IMG/VR virus record: IMGVR_UViG_3300035145_000254
Span: 1-22,533 of that record
Length of the DNA: 22,533 bases
Strand: one strand, 5' to 3'
DNA from: a virus
Both the position numbers and the translations under genes were made by a program. Under the pieces are notes generated by a model that worked only from the letters and a program-made list of their open reading frames with translations, did not search any database and had not been told where the DNA came from. Numbering within the stretch: position 1 is the stretch's first letter; every line of letters begins with the position of its first letter. Shown in pieces: positions 3,517 to 19,766 of this stretch.

Positions 3517-4044
3517 ATGGACCCCTTAACGATTGGTCTAACTTTAGCCGGAGCGGGCGCTGGACTGTATGGCGCTAGAGAGCAGCGTAAGGCTGCTGAA
3601 GGTCAAACAGAGTCTTCGGAGCGTATGCGCCGGGAGGCCATGCAGGCTATCCAGAACTTCGGTCAGAGAGCCCTGCAGCCGCTCCCATCCGCTTACCAGA
3701 GGTCTCAGGACATCCGGCAGCAGAGCGCCAATCGAGCTATGGCCCTAGCAGGTCAGATGTTCAGACCTTCACTTGAGCAGTTTCGTGAGGGTAACTACAT
3801 GGCTCAACAACGAATCGCTGAGGCACAGCCGTTTATGCAGTCTGCAATACTTGGAACCGGATCTTTGGGATATATGCCGCAGGCTCAGCGAGTGCCACTT
3901 GATTACAGTCAACTAGAGCCCTTGATGAACCCGGCTCCAATGGAATTCACTCCTGTCCCCGGTGGTCAGGCAAATATGCAGGCATCTGCTCCGGTTGATC
4001 GGATGCAGCAGGCTGTTCTTCGATACCAGGGAAGAATGTCATGA
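3517..4044 (+). CDS. Candidate ejection protein, P22 gp7-like in position
   Basis: A 175-residue protein with AGGAGAG ending five bases before the ATG. Residues 3-20 form a glycine/alanine-rich hydrophobic segment (LTIGLTLAGAGAGLYGAREQ) like those at the N-terminus of phage ejection proteins. This is followed by a long Gln/Arg/Ala-rich helix (residues 22-100) and a Pro/Met/Gln-rich tail. P22 gp7 (about 229 residues) enters the host with DNA and helps form a trans-envelope channel. The first position in a run of four similar genes supports a role in the same complex. The match rests on composition, the hydrophobic N-terminus and order, because direct sequence similarity to gp7 cannot be checked here. 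It ends in an ATGA overlap with the next gene. Confidence 0.6.
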   Translation: MDPLTIGLTLAGAGAGLYGAREQRKAAEGQTESSERMRREAMQAIQNFGQRALQPLPSAYQRSQDIRQQSANRAMALAGQMFRPSLEQFREGNYMAQQRIAEAQPFMQSAILGTGSLGYMPQAQRVPLDYSQLEPLMNPAPMEFTPVPGGQANMQASAPVDRMQQAVLRYQGRMS

Positions 4045-5738
4045 GCTTGAACCGAGGAAAGCTAGAGGATACAGAGGGCGTAAGGGAGGCCGAGTTTGTC
4101 GTACTCGACTTTATCCGCTCCACTCCAGATGCAACCATTCCAGAGATAGCCCGTCTGATTGATGATGTCGGCGCTGATCTCCGTTACATTGCGAACGAGC
4201 TAGGGATTGACCCTGACGTAGCTCAGCAGGCTTACGATGAAGCCTTCGCGGTTGCGCCTCCGATCGAGCAGGTGATTGAGAAGCAGATCAATGCCGAGCC
4301 CATCGTGCCTCCACAGGCTCCTTTGGCTGAGGTCATCACGGTAGGTCCGGGCTCTTCCAATGCCACTGACGTTCCTGTTCCTCCTGCTGCACCAGAGCCG
4401 CAGGTCAGAGAGAACATCATTCCAGATGAACCAACTCCTACTACGCCCACAAGGGATGTAGTAACTGGCGCTCCCGCCGGAACTACTCTGCCGGTTGGAT
4501 TGGCCGCATCAGAGCAGGCGATCCGTGACGCTGAGGAAAGGGCAAGGCAAGATCTTCTGACAACCTTCAATATTTCCAGGGGTGACCTGGAGAGAGGCAC
4601 TGCAGCAGCCTCTGAGGCTCTTGCTGGAGGAACCAGAAGAGCAAGGAGTGACATTGAGGCTGGCACTCAGAGTGGCTTAGAGGCGCTCAGAGAAGGTCTG
4701 GGCGGGGCTCGCACTGATATTGAGGCGGGCTTCGGTAGAGCCGAGGGTATGTTTGATCCGTACACTCAGGCTGGCCGAGATGCGTTACAGCGGCAACTAG
4801 CTCTATCTGGCGCACTAGGCCAGGAAGAATTCCAGCAGGCTTATCAGGAAAGCCCACAGATGCAATTCCTGCGAGAGCAGGGTGAACGTGCGGCTCTTCG
4901 CACAGCGGCTGCTAGAGGCGGTCTGGGCGGCGGTAGGGTCATGCAGGAGCTTGCCCGGTACGGAACCGGATTGGCTTCTCAGGATTTACAGAATCAGATA
5001 GCCAACCTTCAGGCGCTGTCTTCTCAAGGTCTCGGTGCTACTGGCAGCGCGGCTAACATTGCTACAGGCGGCGCTCAGCAACTGGCAAATCTCGGAGTGC
5101 TAGGTGGCACTTCAGGGTTGCAGGCTTACACTCAGCAGGGTACGCAGTTGGCTGATCTGGCTCAGCAGTTGGGTGTCCGTGAGGCTGACCTGCAGCAAGC
5201 TCTGGGAGCCGGTCAGGCAAACATTGCGCTTGGATTAGGAACTCGCGCAGCGGACCTTTCTGCGGGGATGGGAACCAATATCGCGGGCATGAGGACTCGT
5301 GCAGGTGAACTGCTTGCAGGTCAGTTTGGAACAGCAGCATCACAGCTTGCCGATCTCCAACAGGCTCAGGGCGCTGGTACAGCGAATATGCTCGGAGCGC
5401 AGACAAGCTACATCAACCAGTTACAGCAGGCAGCAGCGGCAGGCGATGCAGCGGCTCAGACTGAACTGGCTCAACTGCAAGCTAACATCAACCTGGGTAT
5501 AGGTAGCTCTCTGGCGGGTGTCCCGGCTGCTCAACTCTTCCCGGTTGCAAACGCTGCAGGGTCGATCCTTGAGGGCGCGGCACTGGGTTACCAGTTAGGT
5601 GAGGGATTCGGCACTCCCAGCACTGCTAGACAGACATATCCGATATCAGGAATGACTCAGATGACAGGCATCTCTCCAACTGGATATCAGGCTTACAACC
5701 CGTTCCAAATATCAGCAAGCAACTTAGGTGAACTCTAG
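4041..5738 (+). CDS. Candidate ejection / DNA transfer protein, Ala/Gln-rich
   Basis: A 565-residue protein coupled by ATGA to its upstream partner. Residues 1-72 form a small acidic helical domain (REAEFVVLDFIRSTPDATI, then GIDPDVAQQAYDEAF). Residues 75-155 are a Pro/Ala/Val-rich linker. Residues 165-240 carry a loose repeat with DLERGT, DIEAGT and DIEAGF. A segment resembling DNA transfer proteins follows: YTQAGRDALQRQLALSGALG, a QESPQM-FLREQGERA block, and ARGGLGGGRVMQELARYGTG. From 300 on it is an Ala/Gln/Leu/Gly helix ending in a Gly/Pro/Tyr-rich tail. P22 gp20 is about 471 residues. Ejection with DNA into the periplasm or cytoplasm is known for that class; assignment here is by features and order. 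Confidence 0.7.
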   Translation: MSLNRGKLEDTEGVREAEFVVLDFIRSTPDATIPEIARLIDDVGADLRYIANELGIDPDVAQQAYDEAFAVAPPIEQVIEKQINAEPIVPPQAPLAEVITVGPGSSNATDVPVPPAAPEPQVRENIIPDEPTPTTPTRDVVTGAPAGTTLPVGLAASEQAIRDAEERARQDLLTTFNISRGDLERGTAAASEALAGGTRRARSDIEAGTQSGLEALREGLGGARTDIEAGFGRAEGMFDPYTQAGRDALQRQLALSGALGQEEFQQAYQESPQMQFLREQGERAALRTAAARGGLGGGRVMQELARYGTGLASQDLQNQIANLQALSSQGLGATGSAANIATGGAQQLANLGVLGGTSGLQAYTQQGTQLADLAQQLGVREADLQQALGAGQANIALGLGTRAADLSAGMGTNIAGMRTRAGELLAGQFGTAASQLADLQQAQGAGTANMLGAQTSYINQLQQAAAAGDAAAQTELAQLQANINLGIGSSLAGVPAAQLFPVANAAGSILEGAALGYQLGEGFGTPSTARQTYPISGMTQMTGISPTGYQAYNPFQISASNLGEL

Positions 5739-6807: not shown

Positions 6808-9180
6808 ATGGCAGATCAGGAAGAGATACAAAGGCGGCGCGAGCAAGCGATTCAGAACGCTACGGCTAGACTACAGCAAAGATCCTCTGCTTCTGTTGTT
6901 GGTGCTTCCGATGTTGCGCCGGGTCAAATTGTTGGCGCTCCGCCTCCTGCTGATCTGGAGGCAAGAAGACTAGCAGCTATTGAGAGAGCGGCAGACGCTT
7001 CTGAGTCAGCTAGATATGCCTCAGAGAGAAGGGCCGCATTTGAGCAAGCGCCAGAAATTTCGATGGCTGGTGTTGAGTCTATTATGACTCCGCTCTCTGA
7101 AGATGCTGGAATCATGCAGCGTGCGGGTAGAGAAGCTAAAGGACTTGGGCTAGGTGCAGTTGGTCTTACTACGTTTGATCCGTGGGAGTTTGGTCAAATG
7201 CTAATGAGGCAAGACCCAAACATAGGAGTAGTGCAGACTCCGGAGGGAGAATTCTTAGCTGTCAATCGCCAGACTAATCGAGTCGTTTCTTTGAACAAGC
7301 CCGGCATCAGCATGATGGATGTTATGCAAATGCTTGCAACAGTTGCTCCGGCATCAAGGGTTGCTTCGGGAACTACCATACCCGGAAGGATGGGGTTAGA
7401 GGCTGCAACTCAGTCAGGTATTGAAGCGGCGCAAACTGTCGCTGGAGGTCAGTTTAATCCTTCAGAGGTTGTTCTTGGAACCGCGGTTACTGGCGCATCA
7501 GATATTGTTCCGGGGGCATATCGAGGAGCAAGAGAAATGCTTGCCAGAAGAGCGCCGGAAGAAACCGGAATGAGGCAGGTAATATCTGAGATTGGCGAAG
7601 CGGCTATAAGCGATCAGCCTTCAAGGATAGCAAGAGCAGCAGAAACCGTTAGAGCAGATCCTACGCTTGTTGGAGCGGCGGAAAGGCTTGGCGTTGAGCA
7701 AACTGTACCAATAAGCGCATTGTCGGGTAACGAGCAGTTTAGAGCTGTCCAGGCGGGACTTACAGCAAGGCTAGGGTCAGACCTTGCTGACGATCAGGCA
7801 AATGCAATTTTAGCGCTATCCGAGAATGTCGCTAGAAGAATGGACGAATATGGCGCTGCAGCATCTCGTGGGGCGTTTGATGATGTTATACGGGACAGGA
7901 TACAGGATGATATTGCCAGCCTATCTGAGCAATCAAACTACTTATATAAAGCCTTAGATAAAGCGGTAGACAGGTTTGGTGGAAAGTTTCAGACAGTAGA
8001 AACGCCAATCCTAAACTCATATGTTAGTCAGCTAAATCAGGCGTATAGAAGCATAAATCAAATGCCTTCTGGTTTGAGAAATATACTTAACCAGATAACA
8101 GACCCGGAGGGCATATCTTACGAGGCGCTCGATCGCCTAAGACGAGCCACAGGAGAGCAATATGCCTCTGCTTTAAGGGGCTCCAATCCATATCCTGATA
8201 CTGATGTCAGATCACTTGGGCAAATCTATGACGTAATTACCCGGCAGCAGAACCAGGCGCTTGAGGGAATAGTCGGCACTAGGGCTCCTGAGATATGGGA
8301 CGCAGCAAAAGGCTTGGTGGCTCAGAGAAAGCAACTTGAAGAGCTTTCAATACAATCTCTCGGAAGAGATTTGACTAATGATCTGATGCCAAAGCTAGAG
8401 CAGTCTCTTGCGAGCATTACTAGGGGTAATATTCAGTCGTTTACCAGAAGAATCAACGCGATCCCGCAAGAGCTAAGACCACAGGCCATGATTACTGCAT
8501 TGAAGGGAATGATGCAGAAAACAGCTAGGTCTGCTGACGTTGATAAAGATTTCACAATGTCTCTGTCTTTTTATCCAAACTGGTGGAGGCAAGTAAAATC
8601 TGATTCAAAGGTTTTTGGTCTTGTTACTAAATACCTTGATCCAGAGCAGATTAGATTTTTTGACGATGTTGCTAGAATTGGTGGCAGTCTACAGAGAAGC
8701 ATTCAGAAACAGCCGATGAATGGAAGGCTTGTTGAGTTTGTTGATAACCTAGATAAGTCTGGAGGCTTAATCTCCAGAGTGCTTGGTAGGATAGGAACCG
8801 ATCGCGGTCCTGTTGGTATGGCCGCAAGGGGAGGCTCTGTTGTTTTTGATACCTTAGTCGGAGCAGCCGGTAGGAGCGATGTAACGCAGAGAATGTCGGA
8901 CCTTCTAAGGGATAACAATTTCCGAAGATTAGTTATAAGGGGAGCGGAAGGCGAGCCAGTTGATAGGGTTTCCGAAAGGCTAATAACGTCACGGGCTTTC
9001 ACCAATTGGTATAATTCTGCTTCTGATTCCGTTAAGTCAGCGATTCAAGAGCTAGGAAGAAGGGCTACTCAAGATATACCTAATGCCTCTGCTGAAAGAA
9101 TACTCGCGGCTGGGGTTGCGGACTACTTTACCCGCTCTAACATTGATGAGATCGAACAATATTTTACTGGTGAAGAATAA
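6808..9180 (+). CDS. Large ejection protein, P22 gp16-like in position
   Basis: A 790-residue protein with TAAGGAATT before the ATG. The first 80 residues are charged and helical (EEIQRRREQAIQNATARLQQ). Residues 100-240 contain Gly/Ala-rich, mildly hydrophobic stretches (AKGLGLGAVGLTTFDPWEFG). The rest is largely helical and Arg/Ala/Asp-rich, with a short MSLSFYPNWWRQVKSDSK segment near 585-602. It is longer than P22 gp16 (about 609 residues) and, like that gene, closes the ejection block just before the tail appendage gene. gp16 is the P22 protein that helps DNA cross the inner membrane. No transglycosylase or protease signature is visible. The 3' end overlaps the fibre start as TAATG. Confidence 0.65.
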   Translation: MADQEEIQRRREQAIQNATARLQQRSSASVVGASDVAPGQIVGAPPPADLEARRLAAIERAADASESARYASERRAAFEQAPEISMAGVESIMTPLSEDAGIMQRAGREAKGLGLGAVGLTTFDPWEFGQMLMRQDPNIGVVQTPEGEFLAVNRQTNRVVSLNKPGISMMDVMQMLATVAPASRVASGTTIPGRMGLEAATQSGIEAAQTVAGGQFNPSEVVLGTAVTGASDIVPGAYRGAREMLARRAPEETGMRQVISEIGEAAISDQPSRIARAAETVRADPTLVGAAERLGVEQTVPISALSGNEQFRAVQAGLTARLGSDLADDQANAILALSENVARRMDEYGAAASRGAFDDVIRDRIQDDIASLSEQSNYLYKALDKAVDRFGGKFQTVETPILNSYVSQLNQAYRSINQMPSGLRNILNQITDPEGISYEALDRLRRATGEQYASALRGSNPYPDTDVRSLGQIYDVITRQQNQALEGIVGTRAPEIWDAAKGLVAQRKQLEELSIQSLGRDLTNDLMPKLEQSLASITRGNIQSFTRRINAIPQELRPQAMITALKGMMQKTARSADVDKDFTMSLSFYPNWWRQVKSDSKVFGLVTKYLDPEQIRFFDDVARIGGSLQRSIQKQPMNGRLVEFVDNLDKSGGLISRVLGRIGTDRGPVGMAARGGSVVFDTLVGAAGRSDVTQRMSDLLRDNNFRRLVIRGAEGEPVDRVSERLITSRAFTNWYNSASDSVKSAIQELGRRATQDIPNASAERILAAGVADYFTRSNIDEIEQYFTGEE

Positions 9181-18331: not shown

Positions 18332-18531
18332 GCTACGTTATCCAGCGGGAGATCAAGGAGATCATCGCGCGGAACGGGCTTATGAATAAGAAATCAAGCA
18401 TCGAGATGCTTCACTTTTACAGCAAGCGTATGAAGCCGCAGGCCGCAAAGCGGGCTCTGTGGACGATACAGTGCCTAAAATACAACTTAGCGTGGGATGT
18501 GAGACCGAATGAAAATAGCCTCTTCAGATAG
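18328..18531 (+). CDS. Small unknown helical protein
   Basis: The frame is open from ATG 18283 (82 residues) and contains ATG 18328, which shares ATGA with the previous stop. I favour 18328, giving 67 residues, because short overlaps are the rule in this cluster, although GAGG nine bases before 18283 makes the longer form possible. The product reads MSYVIQREIKEIIARNGLMN, then KKSSIEMLHFYSKRMKPQAA, ending in CLKYNLAWDVRPNENSLF. It is basic and helical, possibly a compact DNA-binding fold. No family is recognised. It overlaps the nuclease gene by 23 bases, so it is probably expressed with it. Confidence 0.6.
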   Translation: MSYVIQREIKEIIARNGLMNKKSSIEMLHFYSKRMKPQAAKRALWTIQCLKYNLAWDVRPNENSLFR

Positions 18532-18925
18532 GTGGTTCAGTAAGTGTGTGAGAGAGCGCAGCAACTGGACCTGTGAACATTGCGGGAAAGTGTATCCGCA
18601 GAACTCCCAGGGGCTCCACTGCAGTCATTACTTCGGGCGCAGGAACAAGTCCCTACGGTGGGATCCAGACAACGCATTCGCGCATTGTTTCGGCTGCCAC
18701 CAGAAGCTCGGGAGCAACCCGCACGACTTTCAGCGCTGGGCAGAGGAACGTCTGGGCTCCGGGACCGTAGAGATCCTGAACGAGAAGCGGAATGACCTGA
18801 ACTTGGCGAAGAGCCTCCACAAAGCGGAGAAGGAGATCGCCGCGCACTACAAGCTGGAGTATGAGACCATGCTTTCCCGCCGGGCTGCAGGTGAGTCTGG
18901 CCGACTAGAATTCACAGGATTTTGA
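18509..18925 (+). CDS. HNH-type nuclease, NinG/Rap-like
   Basis: 138 residues. Two Cys pairs lie around a histidine-rich core: C22-x2-C25 (CEHC), H37-C-S-H40 in GLHCSHYFGRRNKSLRWDPD, N55 and C60-x2-C63 (HCFGCH). This arrangement of paired Cys around an H-x2-H core and a D-P-D-N-x-x-x-x-C segment resembles lambda NinG, also called Rap, a Holliday-junction endonuclease, and HNH zinc nucleases in general. A long charged helix follows (EKRNDLNLAKSLHKAEKEIA). Its place behind the annealing protein and SSB-like gene fits recombination-intermediate resolution. The exact substrate cannot be read from sequence; a homing or packaging HNH is the main alternative but less likely here. Confidence 0.8.
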   Translation: MKIASSDRWFSKCVRERSNWTCEHCGKVYPQNSQGLHCSHYFGRRNKSLRWDPDNAFAHCFGCHQKLGSNPHDFQRWAEERLGSGTVEILNEKRNDLNLAKSLHKAEKEIAAHYKLEYETMLSRRAAGESGRLEFTGF

Positions 18926-18926
18926 G

Positions 18927-19133
18927 ATGAAATTAGAAGAGATTACCTTCAACATCATGACCCCGGACGAGCTGAACGAGTGGTTCATGAAGAGCCACAG
19001 CAGGTTCTCCGGGAAGGATCATGACGCGATCAACACAATGAACTTCTTCCTGAAGATGATTGAGGATTGGTTTGAGGAGAATGACCAGTACATCGACAGC
19101 TACGAAGAGTACGTCACAAGGGAATTGCATTGA
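18927..19133 (+). CDS. Small acidic unknown protein
   Basis: 68 residues starting one base after the nuclease stop, with a weak AGGA site upstream. The product is strongly acidic (KLEEITFNIMTPDELNEWFM, then a FFLKMIEDWFEENDQYIDSY segment) and aromatic-rich in its C-terminal half. No motif is recognised. Acidic small early proteins in phages often bind host enzymes or mimic DNA, but there is no specific evidence here. It is the last gene before the long non-coding block and may share a transcript with it. Confidence 0.6.
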   Translation: MKLEEITFNIMTPDELNEWFMKSHSRFSGKDHDAINTMNFFLKMIEDWFEENDQYIDSYEEYVTRELH

Positions 19134-19146
19134 TTCCGGTTTGGAA

Positions 19147-19587
19147 TTAGGATTGGGAAGTCGGTCCGAGTGACAAGCTCAGCGAGCCGACAGATGGGAA
19201 TCAAGGGAGAAAGAAGCTGTCAGCGCCCGACTTGGGTAGTATTGTAGCACTTTCTCTCCTCTTCTCAATGAAAATGGCAGGCATATGCGTTGGTCAGCCC
19301 GTGGGCTTCTCCCGGCATATAAAATCTGAGGGACACTGAGAAAGTCCTGTCAATAGCGTTATGAGTGGCCAGATACGCGCTCCGATTGGGCAACCTTCGG
19401 CAGTACGCACATCTGGCGCGGTAGAACGCTCTCAGGCGGCGCGTACGGGCCGTAATCTACCGAGAAGGGTGTACCTACCTATGGCCCTTCCCCTGTCTTC
19501 GATGGCGACTGACGGCGGCATATCACTAAACCGGGGCTTCGGTCCCGGCTAGGGTGAGTATTGCCCTGTAATATCTCCGGCTCCTAA
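19147..19587 (+). ncRNA. Candidate large structured (ornate) RNA
   Basis: This 477-base gap (19134-19610) has no convincing gene but many nested complementary stems. Ends: TTAGGA 19147-19152 with TCCTAA 19582-19587, plus three pairs inside. Others: 19160-19164/19187-19191 (GTCGG/CCGAC); a 9-bp stem 19205-19213/19250-19258; 19262-19267/19337-19342; 19283-19288/19315-19320; 19296-19299/19304-19307; 19355-19360/19425-19430 around 19368-19374/19411-19417 (GCCAGAT/ATCTGGC), leading to CCGA/TCGG capped by GG-GCAA-CC, a GNRA loop; 19464-19469/19485-19490; and CCGGGGC-TTCG-GTCCCGG at 19531-19548. CGGTAG 19419-19424 with CTACCG 19457-19462 would form a pseudoknot. It lacks tRNA, tmRNA, RNase P or group I intron signatures. 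Strand is assumed from the genes. Size and phage context recall GOLLD or ROOL, but no match was shown. Confidence 0.6.
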
Positions 19588-19610
19588 CAGCAGCATAACA
19601 AGGAATATGT

Positions 19611-19766
19611 ATGAATGAACTTGAAAACAAATCCTGCCACTGTGGAAAAGTAGCGGTGCAGGTCATTGGATATGACGATAAAGACCAGCCATTCAGGCAG
19701 GGTTGGTACTGCCCTGGATGCCGCGGATTCGACAAGGCAATTGGCCGGGAACGGGTTGTGAAATAA
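19611..19766 (+). CDS. 51-residue zinc-ribbon-like protein
   Basis: A short frame with AAGGAA (19600-19605) five bases before the ATG. Cys9-His-Cys11 (KSCHCGKVAV) and Cys34-Pro-Gly-Cys37 (WYCPGCRGF) form two metal-binding knuckles about 22 residues apart, as in small zinc ribbons. The rest is charged (IGRERVVK at the end). Small zinc-ribbon proteins are frequent in phage early regions and may bind nucleic acid or host RNA polymerase. It directly follows the candidate structured RNA, so that RNA could also be its long leader. A promoter lies 25 bases downstream. Confidence 0.7.
   Translation: MNELENKSCHCGKVAVQVIGYDDKDQPFRQGWYCPGCRGFDKAIGRERVVK

Follow-up and report, generated by a model that had tools for sequence, protein, structure and literature searches.

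A conserved structured RNA of about 440 nt, apparently undescribed, in recombination and replication regions of uncultivated phages

To our knowledge few classes of large structured RNA are known, and those of phages, such as GOLLD and ROOL, are without an established function. GOLLD is a large, ornate RNA of phages and prophages, conserved in its 3' region and less so in its 5' region, whose function is unknown and which forms a homo-oligomeric RNA cage (PMC12286853). ROOL env-120 is 659 nt long, and ROOLs often lie near tRNA islands (PMC12286853). The Vibrio phage ICP1 has an abundant ncRNA of about 800 nt that lies outside tRNA islands (PMC7567579).

The RNA described here was recognised in a 22.5-kb IMG/VR virus fragment of a marine-type podovirus (hereafter the window, meaning the whole 22,533-nt stretch of DNA that was analysed). 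The fragment carries P22-like head genes (PF11134), whose best deposited relative is Pseudoalteromonas phage vB_PspP-H6/1 at 43% protein identity, and it also encodes an exonuclease, an Erf/Rad52-like annealing protein and a NinG-like endonuclease. Upstream of the RNA lie the NinG/Rap-like endonuclease (18509-18925, + strand; PF05766, phrog_5034) and a 68-aa ORF of no family (18927-19133, +), and downstream a 51-aa zinc-ribbon-like protein (19611-19766, +) with a CxC..CxxC pattern and a weak DUF5816 match; in one relative, L004, an additional ORF separates the RNA from this last gene. We place the whole structured element at 19144-19587 (+), its ends being inferred from conservation and from the outer stem.

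Like GOLLD, this is a large phage RNA of unknown function whose 3' region is better conserved than its 5' region, and one copy (L183) lies near a tRNA; unlike GOLLD, it has no Rfam match, is about 440 nt long against more than 800 nt for many GOLLDs, and occurs mostly in recombination/replication regions without tRNAs. With ROOL it shares being a large, structured, intergenic phage RNA of unknown function, but again there is no Rfam match, and proximity to a tRNA island, which is typical of ROOL though not strictly defining, does not hold for it in the member loci scanned, apart from tRNAs in L183 and L208. Because neither family model matches, we did not file the RNA under either; on our best reading it is comparable in kind to GOLLD and ROOL, its closest counterparts, and a member of neither. 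It resembles the ICP1 ncRNA in being a large phage ncRNA outside tRNA islands, and the ICP1 stretch of about 1 kb without ORFs reported to give that abundant ncRNA (L196, 4098-5108) was not matched by our covariance model R2, described below; the ICP1 ncRNA may belong to a different family.

A sequence-only reading of the window had proposed that the block holds no gene and folds into many nested stems, as a candidate undescribed structured RNA. The first proposal was borne out: the largest ORFs inside the block, of 63 aa (19361-19552, +) and 42 aa (19265-19393, -), are disrupted in sister sequences by one-base indels and stops and stay open only in L002, which is 97% identical, and no conserved protein frame was found in the homologues. 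The block 19144-19587 (+) is non-coding. The claimed complementary stems are indeed present in the sequence; however, the minimum free energy of -171.4 kcal/mol corresponds to a z-score of -0.98, and 16 of 100 shuffles were equally or more stable. Since the single sequence folds no better than shuffled ones, the stem count alone is no evidence, and we dropped free-energy z-scores as uninformative.

Homologues of the window clade (group A) were sought through the NinG and zinc-ribbon proteins, giving 60 and 48 loci, and with blastn and nhmmer the block was found in 12 other IMG/VR contigs at identities to the window block of 97% (L002), 85-87% and 75% (L004). The clade alignment contains one-base, frame-breaking indels. 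RNAalifold returned 140 pairs, 18 of them with two-sided changes, and in our named structure, which has 96 pairs, 97.8% of cells were paired, with two-sided changes in 13 pairs (equalled by none of 500 shuffles); when partners were slid by one column, pairing fell to 40-45%. The covariation is carried by P6, P4, P5, S1 and the 3' hairpin, P1 contributing none. Conservation and covariation are far above chance, unlike the folding energy.

The outer stem P1 (19147-19157 with 19576-19587, +) is assigned only tentatively, with 92% of cells paired and no covariation. The sequence-only reading had joined the two ends through 19147-19152 and 19582-19587, and this pair exists and, among eight close sequences, is largely kept in seven; it shows no covariation, however, and L004 breaks it, as it does P1 generally. 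The two tetraloops of that reading did not hold up as conserved features, the UUCG loop not being kept in L004 and the GNRA loop (GCAA) being lost in L004 and most other sisters.

The 5' strand of P2, AAGTCGG (19158-19164, +), has two competing partners. The overlapping GTCGGT (19160-19165) can form 6 bp with the local GCCGAC (19186-19191, +), or the whole strand 7 bp with the distal CCGACTT (19227-19233, +). The distal pairing covaries between groups (AAGUCGG/CCGACUU, GUGUCGGU/ACCGACAC and UUGUCGG/CCGACAA), in the pairs that flank its core, and near and far CCGA-type partners of one 5' strand with a UCGGU core, mutually exclusive, were present in all seven members of groups A, B and C that were checked (window, L014, L004, L122, L160, L085 and L136). 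A competition of this kind could represent a switch or an intermolecular contact, and is not proof of either.

Further in, P3 (19275-19282 with 19344-19352, +) occurs as four differing sequences, each of which pairs best with its own partner, and the P4 hairpin (19283-19320, +) is paired in 100% of cells with two-sided changes in two pairs. The motif GTTATGRGTRG (19358-19368, +), about 100 nt before GTAAT, is conserved in groups A, B and C, with the variant GTTAAG in L160. It runs into the P6 arm (19368-19417, +; 19368-19374 with 19411-19417), whose inner loop ends in TACGCA and whose outer pairs show two-sided changes at four of seven positions within the window clade.

In the S1 module (19420-19461, +), GGTAGA (19420-19425) and TCTACC (19456-19461) enclose ACGC...GG, a hairpin and GTAA (19452-19455). 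In groups A, B, D and E stems of differing sequence lie directly against the start of the loop and GTAA, and in group C they lie one base off; they read GGUAGA/UCUACC, GCAUUGA/UCAGUGC, GCGGUA/UAUCGC, GGAGCA/UGUUCC, GAUCGA/UCGAUU, GCAGAG/CUCUGC and AGAGAG/CUCUCU, and all six pairs covary. S1, valid in all groups in which both strands are present, replaced the AGCGTT/AACGCT pairing that RNAalifold gave for the window clade, which may still occur in groups A and B as an alternative or tertiary pairing. In these two groups GCGTT (19356-19360) can pair with AACGC (19425-19429) in competition with S1, as a possible tertiary or alternative helix. The P5 hairpin (19464-19490, +) covaries across groups in six of seven pairs. 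The 3' module (19517-19565, +) consists of GGCA..TCACT, a hairpin (19531-19548) in which seven of seven pairs covary across groups, and the near-invariant GGGTGAGTATTGCC (19552-19565), which is common to all detected groups. Its invariance is partly a matter of selection, because it served as search anchor for several groups; nevertheless L085, found through a protein neighbour and nhmmer with no requirement for GGGTGAGTATTGCC, carries it.

The divergent members were found by motif scans and nhmmer, and comprise groups B (L122/L118/L160), C (L085/L142 and L136), D (L154 and L167) and E (L178/L169 and L183). At least seven sets of uncultivated phages, very different from one another, keep the shape of the RNA but not its sequence, and in groups A, B and C the spacing is nearly constant, with 94-100 nt from GTTATG to GTAAT and 104-108 nt from GTAAT to GAGTATTGCC. 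In permutation tests, in which strand partners were dealt among the groups and the true assignment ranked, the true partners were the best of 5040 for both S1 and P5 and the best of 24 for P3; for P6 they ranked among the best 2 of 720, and for the 3' hairpin among the best 4 of 40320. All of these except S1 are weakened by our having picked the strand windows by eye, and it was to avoid that choice that we turned to covariance models.

Model R1 was built on sequences of the window clade only, with a structure string informed by the group comparison, and it found L122 (E 3e-7), L178 (1.9e-6), L160 (3e-6) and L085 (0.03). Model R2, built from the members that R1 had found, recovered the held-out L136 (3e-19), L154 (2.5e-11), L183 (1.6e-9) and L167 (5e-8); these E-values are rough. 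Over the same 98 loci R2 gave no further match up to E 10; in 61 more loci it found L169, the sister of L178 (E 1.8e-27), besides chance hits at E 0.3 or worse. Nothing else was convincing in about 1.4 Mb of other DNA. Pattern hits outside these groups, L126, L171, L176 and L187 among them, were judged to be chance, and a suspicion that contig ends often fall within the RNA was dropped, since L154 and L176 turned out to lie mid-contig. Because MAFFT mis-registered S1 in the divergent groups, the cross-group alignment (A5) was model-based; in it 94.8% of cells are paired and two-sided changes occur in 22 of the 32 pairs; none of 500 shuffles attained any of these measures, and sliding the partners left at most 50% paired. 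A5 leans towards structure, since the alignment was fitted to structure, but the held-out matches and the covariation within the window clade do not rely solely on it. With covariation among homologues strong both within the clade and across the groups, we regard it as virtually certain that the block encodes a conserved structured RNA.

Searches against known families returned nothing to which it could be assigned. Rfam 15 at the gathering threshold gave no match, to GOLLD, ROOL, an intron, a ribozyme or any other family, for the RNA of the window, L183, L178 or L154, and none for L122 and L136 up to E 5. For the window block up to E 10 the only match was PhotoRC-I, rejected as chance (E 0.74; it scores 14.4 bits where the cut-off is 45), its likeness being a 31-nt overlap with the UUCG hairpin. 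ARAGORN and Rfam found no tRNA, tmRNA or RNase P in the block, in agreement with the sequence-only reading, which had seen no tmRNA, RNase P or intron signatures and could not tie the block to GOLLD or ROOL. In blastn against 50,697 deposited phages several members had no credible copy, coincidences with RtcB being chance matches of 20-36 bp. A pattern scan of bacterial and archaeal genomes yielded five hits, all chance on inspection and none found by R2, and R2 over 298 genomes of one phylum had no match, which is uninformative. With no Rfam match, covarying homologues and no conserved protein frame, the proposal of a candidate undescribed phage RNA is supported. Fremin and Kyrpides have reportedly published a large-scale list of structured RNAs from viruses; the RNA appears undescribed, though an earlier unnamed listing cannot be excluded.

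The RNA is found in recombination/replication regions, in many cases 0.05-2.7 kb ahead of a phrog_16 helicase, and each of the eight member contigs scanned has a single copy. Downstream of the RNA, groups A, B and C have a helicase of the phrog_16/ResIII type, and in L004 the next protein after it has a DnaG-type CHC2 zinc finger; in L183 the helicase precedes the RNA. L206 contains an SSB by family match and exonuclease- and RecT-like ORFs recognised by eye, and L207 has exonuclease-, Erf- and O-like ORFs, likewise recognised by eye. The RNA is missing from five records, 25-35 kb long, in which related NinG, zinc-ribbon or helicase genes are present, so that it is accessory, relatives that share the gene order being without it. 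The zinc-ribbon-like protein of the window (19611-19766) adjoins NinG/HNH and helicase genes in related phages, with or without the RNA.

How the RNA acts was weighed against this context. One rival proposal, unlikely in our judgement although the strongest of them, is that the RNA acts in cis on downstream replication genes as a leader or switch (riboswitch-like, an antiterminator or a translational control), with the P2 alternatives as the switch. In groups A, B, C and D1 there is, as in a leader, a start codon some 20-60 nt downstream, and in L122/L160 the end of the 3' motif and the helicase start are 54-57 nt apart; the local and distal P2 pairings also compete in every A, B and C member checked. 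Dense phage genomes, however, place start codons near almost everything, no terminator or SD-sequestering hairpin was recognised at the 3' end, and the downstream gene varies between groups, being by member a zinc ribbon, another ORF, a helicase, a small ORF or a methyltransferase, while the next ORF after the L167 RNA is convergent and the next gene after the L183 RNA is tRNA-Pro. Because the downstream neighbour is not constant, we favour a stand-alone RNA over a leader, as a moderately probable inference without transcript data.

That the RNA serves phage replication at the level of DNA or of a transcript, as an origin transcript or a primer RNA for instance, is improbable: NinG, Erf/Rad52, exonuclease, SSB, helicase and primase-like genes are neighbours in several groups, but the RNA is missing from relatives with the same replication genes, and GU wobbles that keep pairs in stems of variable sequence point to RNA structure and not to a DNA site. 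Still less probable is a self-cleaving ribozyme or self-splicing intron-like element, for although the nearly invariant GUAA, GGGUGAGUAUUGCC and GUUAUGRGURG within covarying helices resemble an active-site core, no Rfam intron or ribozyme family matches even up to E 5-10, and the RNA lies between genes with no split gene seen.

The preferred explanation as a whole, a discrete trans-acting RNA of about 440 nt forming a new family of large phage RNAs, seems to us fairly probable in the absence of transcript data. Its transcription would be shared with the early recombination/replication genes or, in some groups, driven by a promoter of its own. No sigma-70 promoter was found ahead of the window copy and no clear terminator was seen behind the copies scanned, so that the window RNA probably belongs to an operon transcript; promoter-like sites seen in L206 and L207, about 430-440 nt ahead of where the 3' motif ends, are close to what chance would give. 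The RNA would fold into a compact multi-helix form with a conserved 3' domain (S1 module, P5 and 3' module) and act in trans during infection on a target that is not known. We would speculatively prefer a scaffold or decoy, possibly self-associating like GOLLD and ROOL, and, equally as speculation, the competing P2 pairing would allow two states or intermolecular pairing. Against a stand-alone RNA we count the missing promoter at the window copy, the want of a clear terminator behind the copies scanned, the nearby start codons and the ordinary folding energy. Conserved structure and accessory occurrence are established by these data; function is not.

Were the preferred explanation correct, a further unrelated family would be tied to recombination/replication genes and not to tRNA islands. 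We hold only tentatively that it represents a class of large phage RNA not recognised before and without relation to GOLLD or ROOL, which distantly related phages share in their early recombination/replication regions and whose two-state 5' pairing and conserved 3' core would serve a mechanism unseen in known phage RNAs. Its presence in some relatives and absence from others provides natural presence/absence pairs for questions about its role in infection, and the compact conserved domain of about 155 nt is testable for what large phage RNAs do there.

Among the member loci scanned, tRNAs lie near the RNA only in L183 and L208. The RNA region of L183 holds three tRNA genes and two Rfam int-alpA RNAs (3561-3637, 4107-4171, 7804-7869 and 8431-8586). 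In their 5' half the E-group RNAs (L178, 637-1010, -; L183, 3030-3390) have a second S1-like module, with the stems ACACAG/CUGUGU and AACUGG/CCAGUU, the 3' strand of each following directly after CCGUAA.
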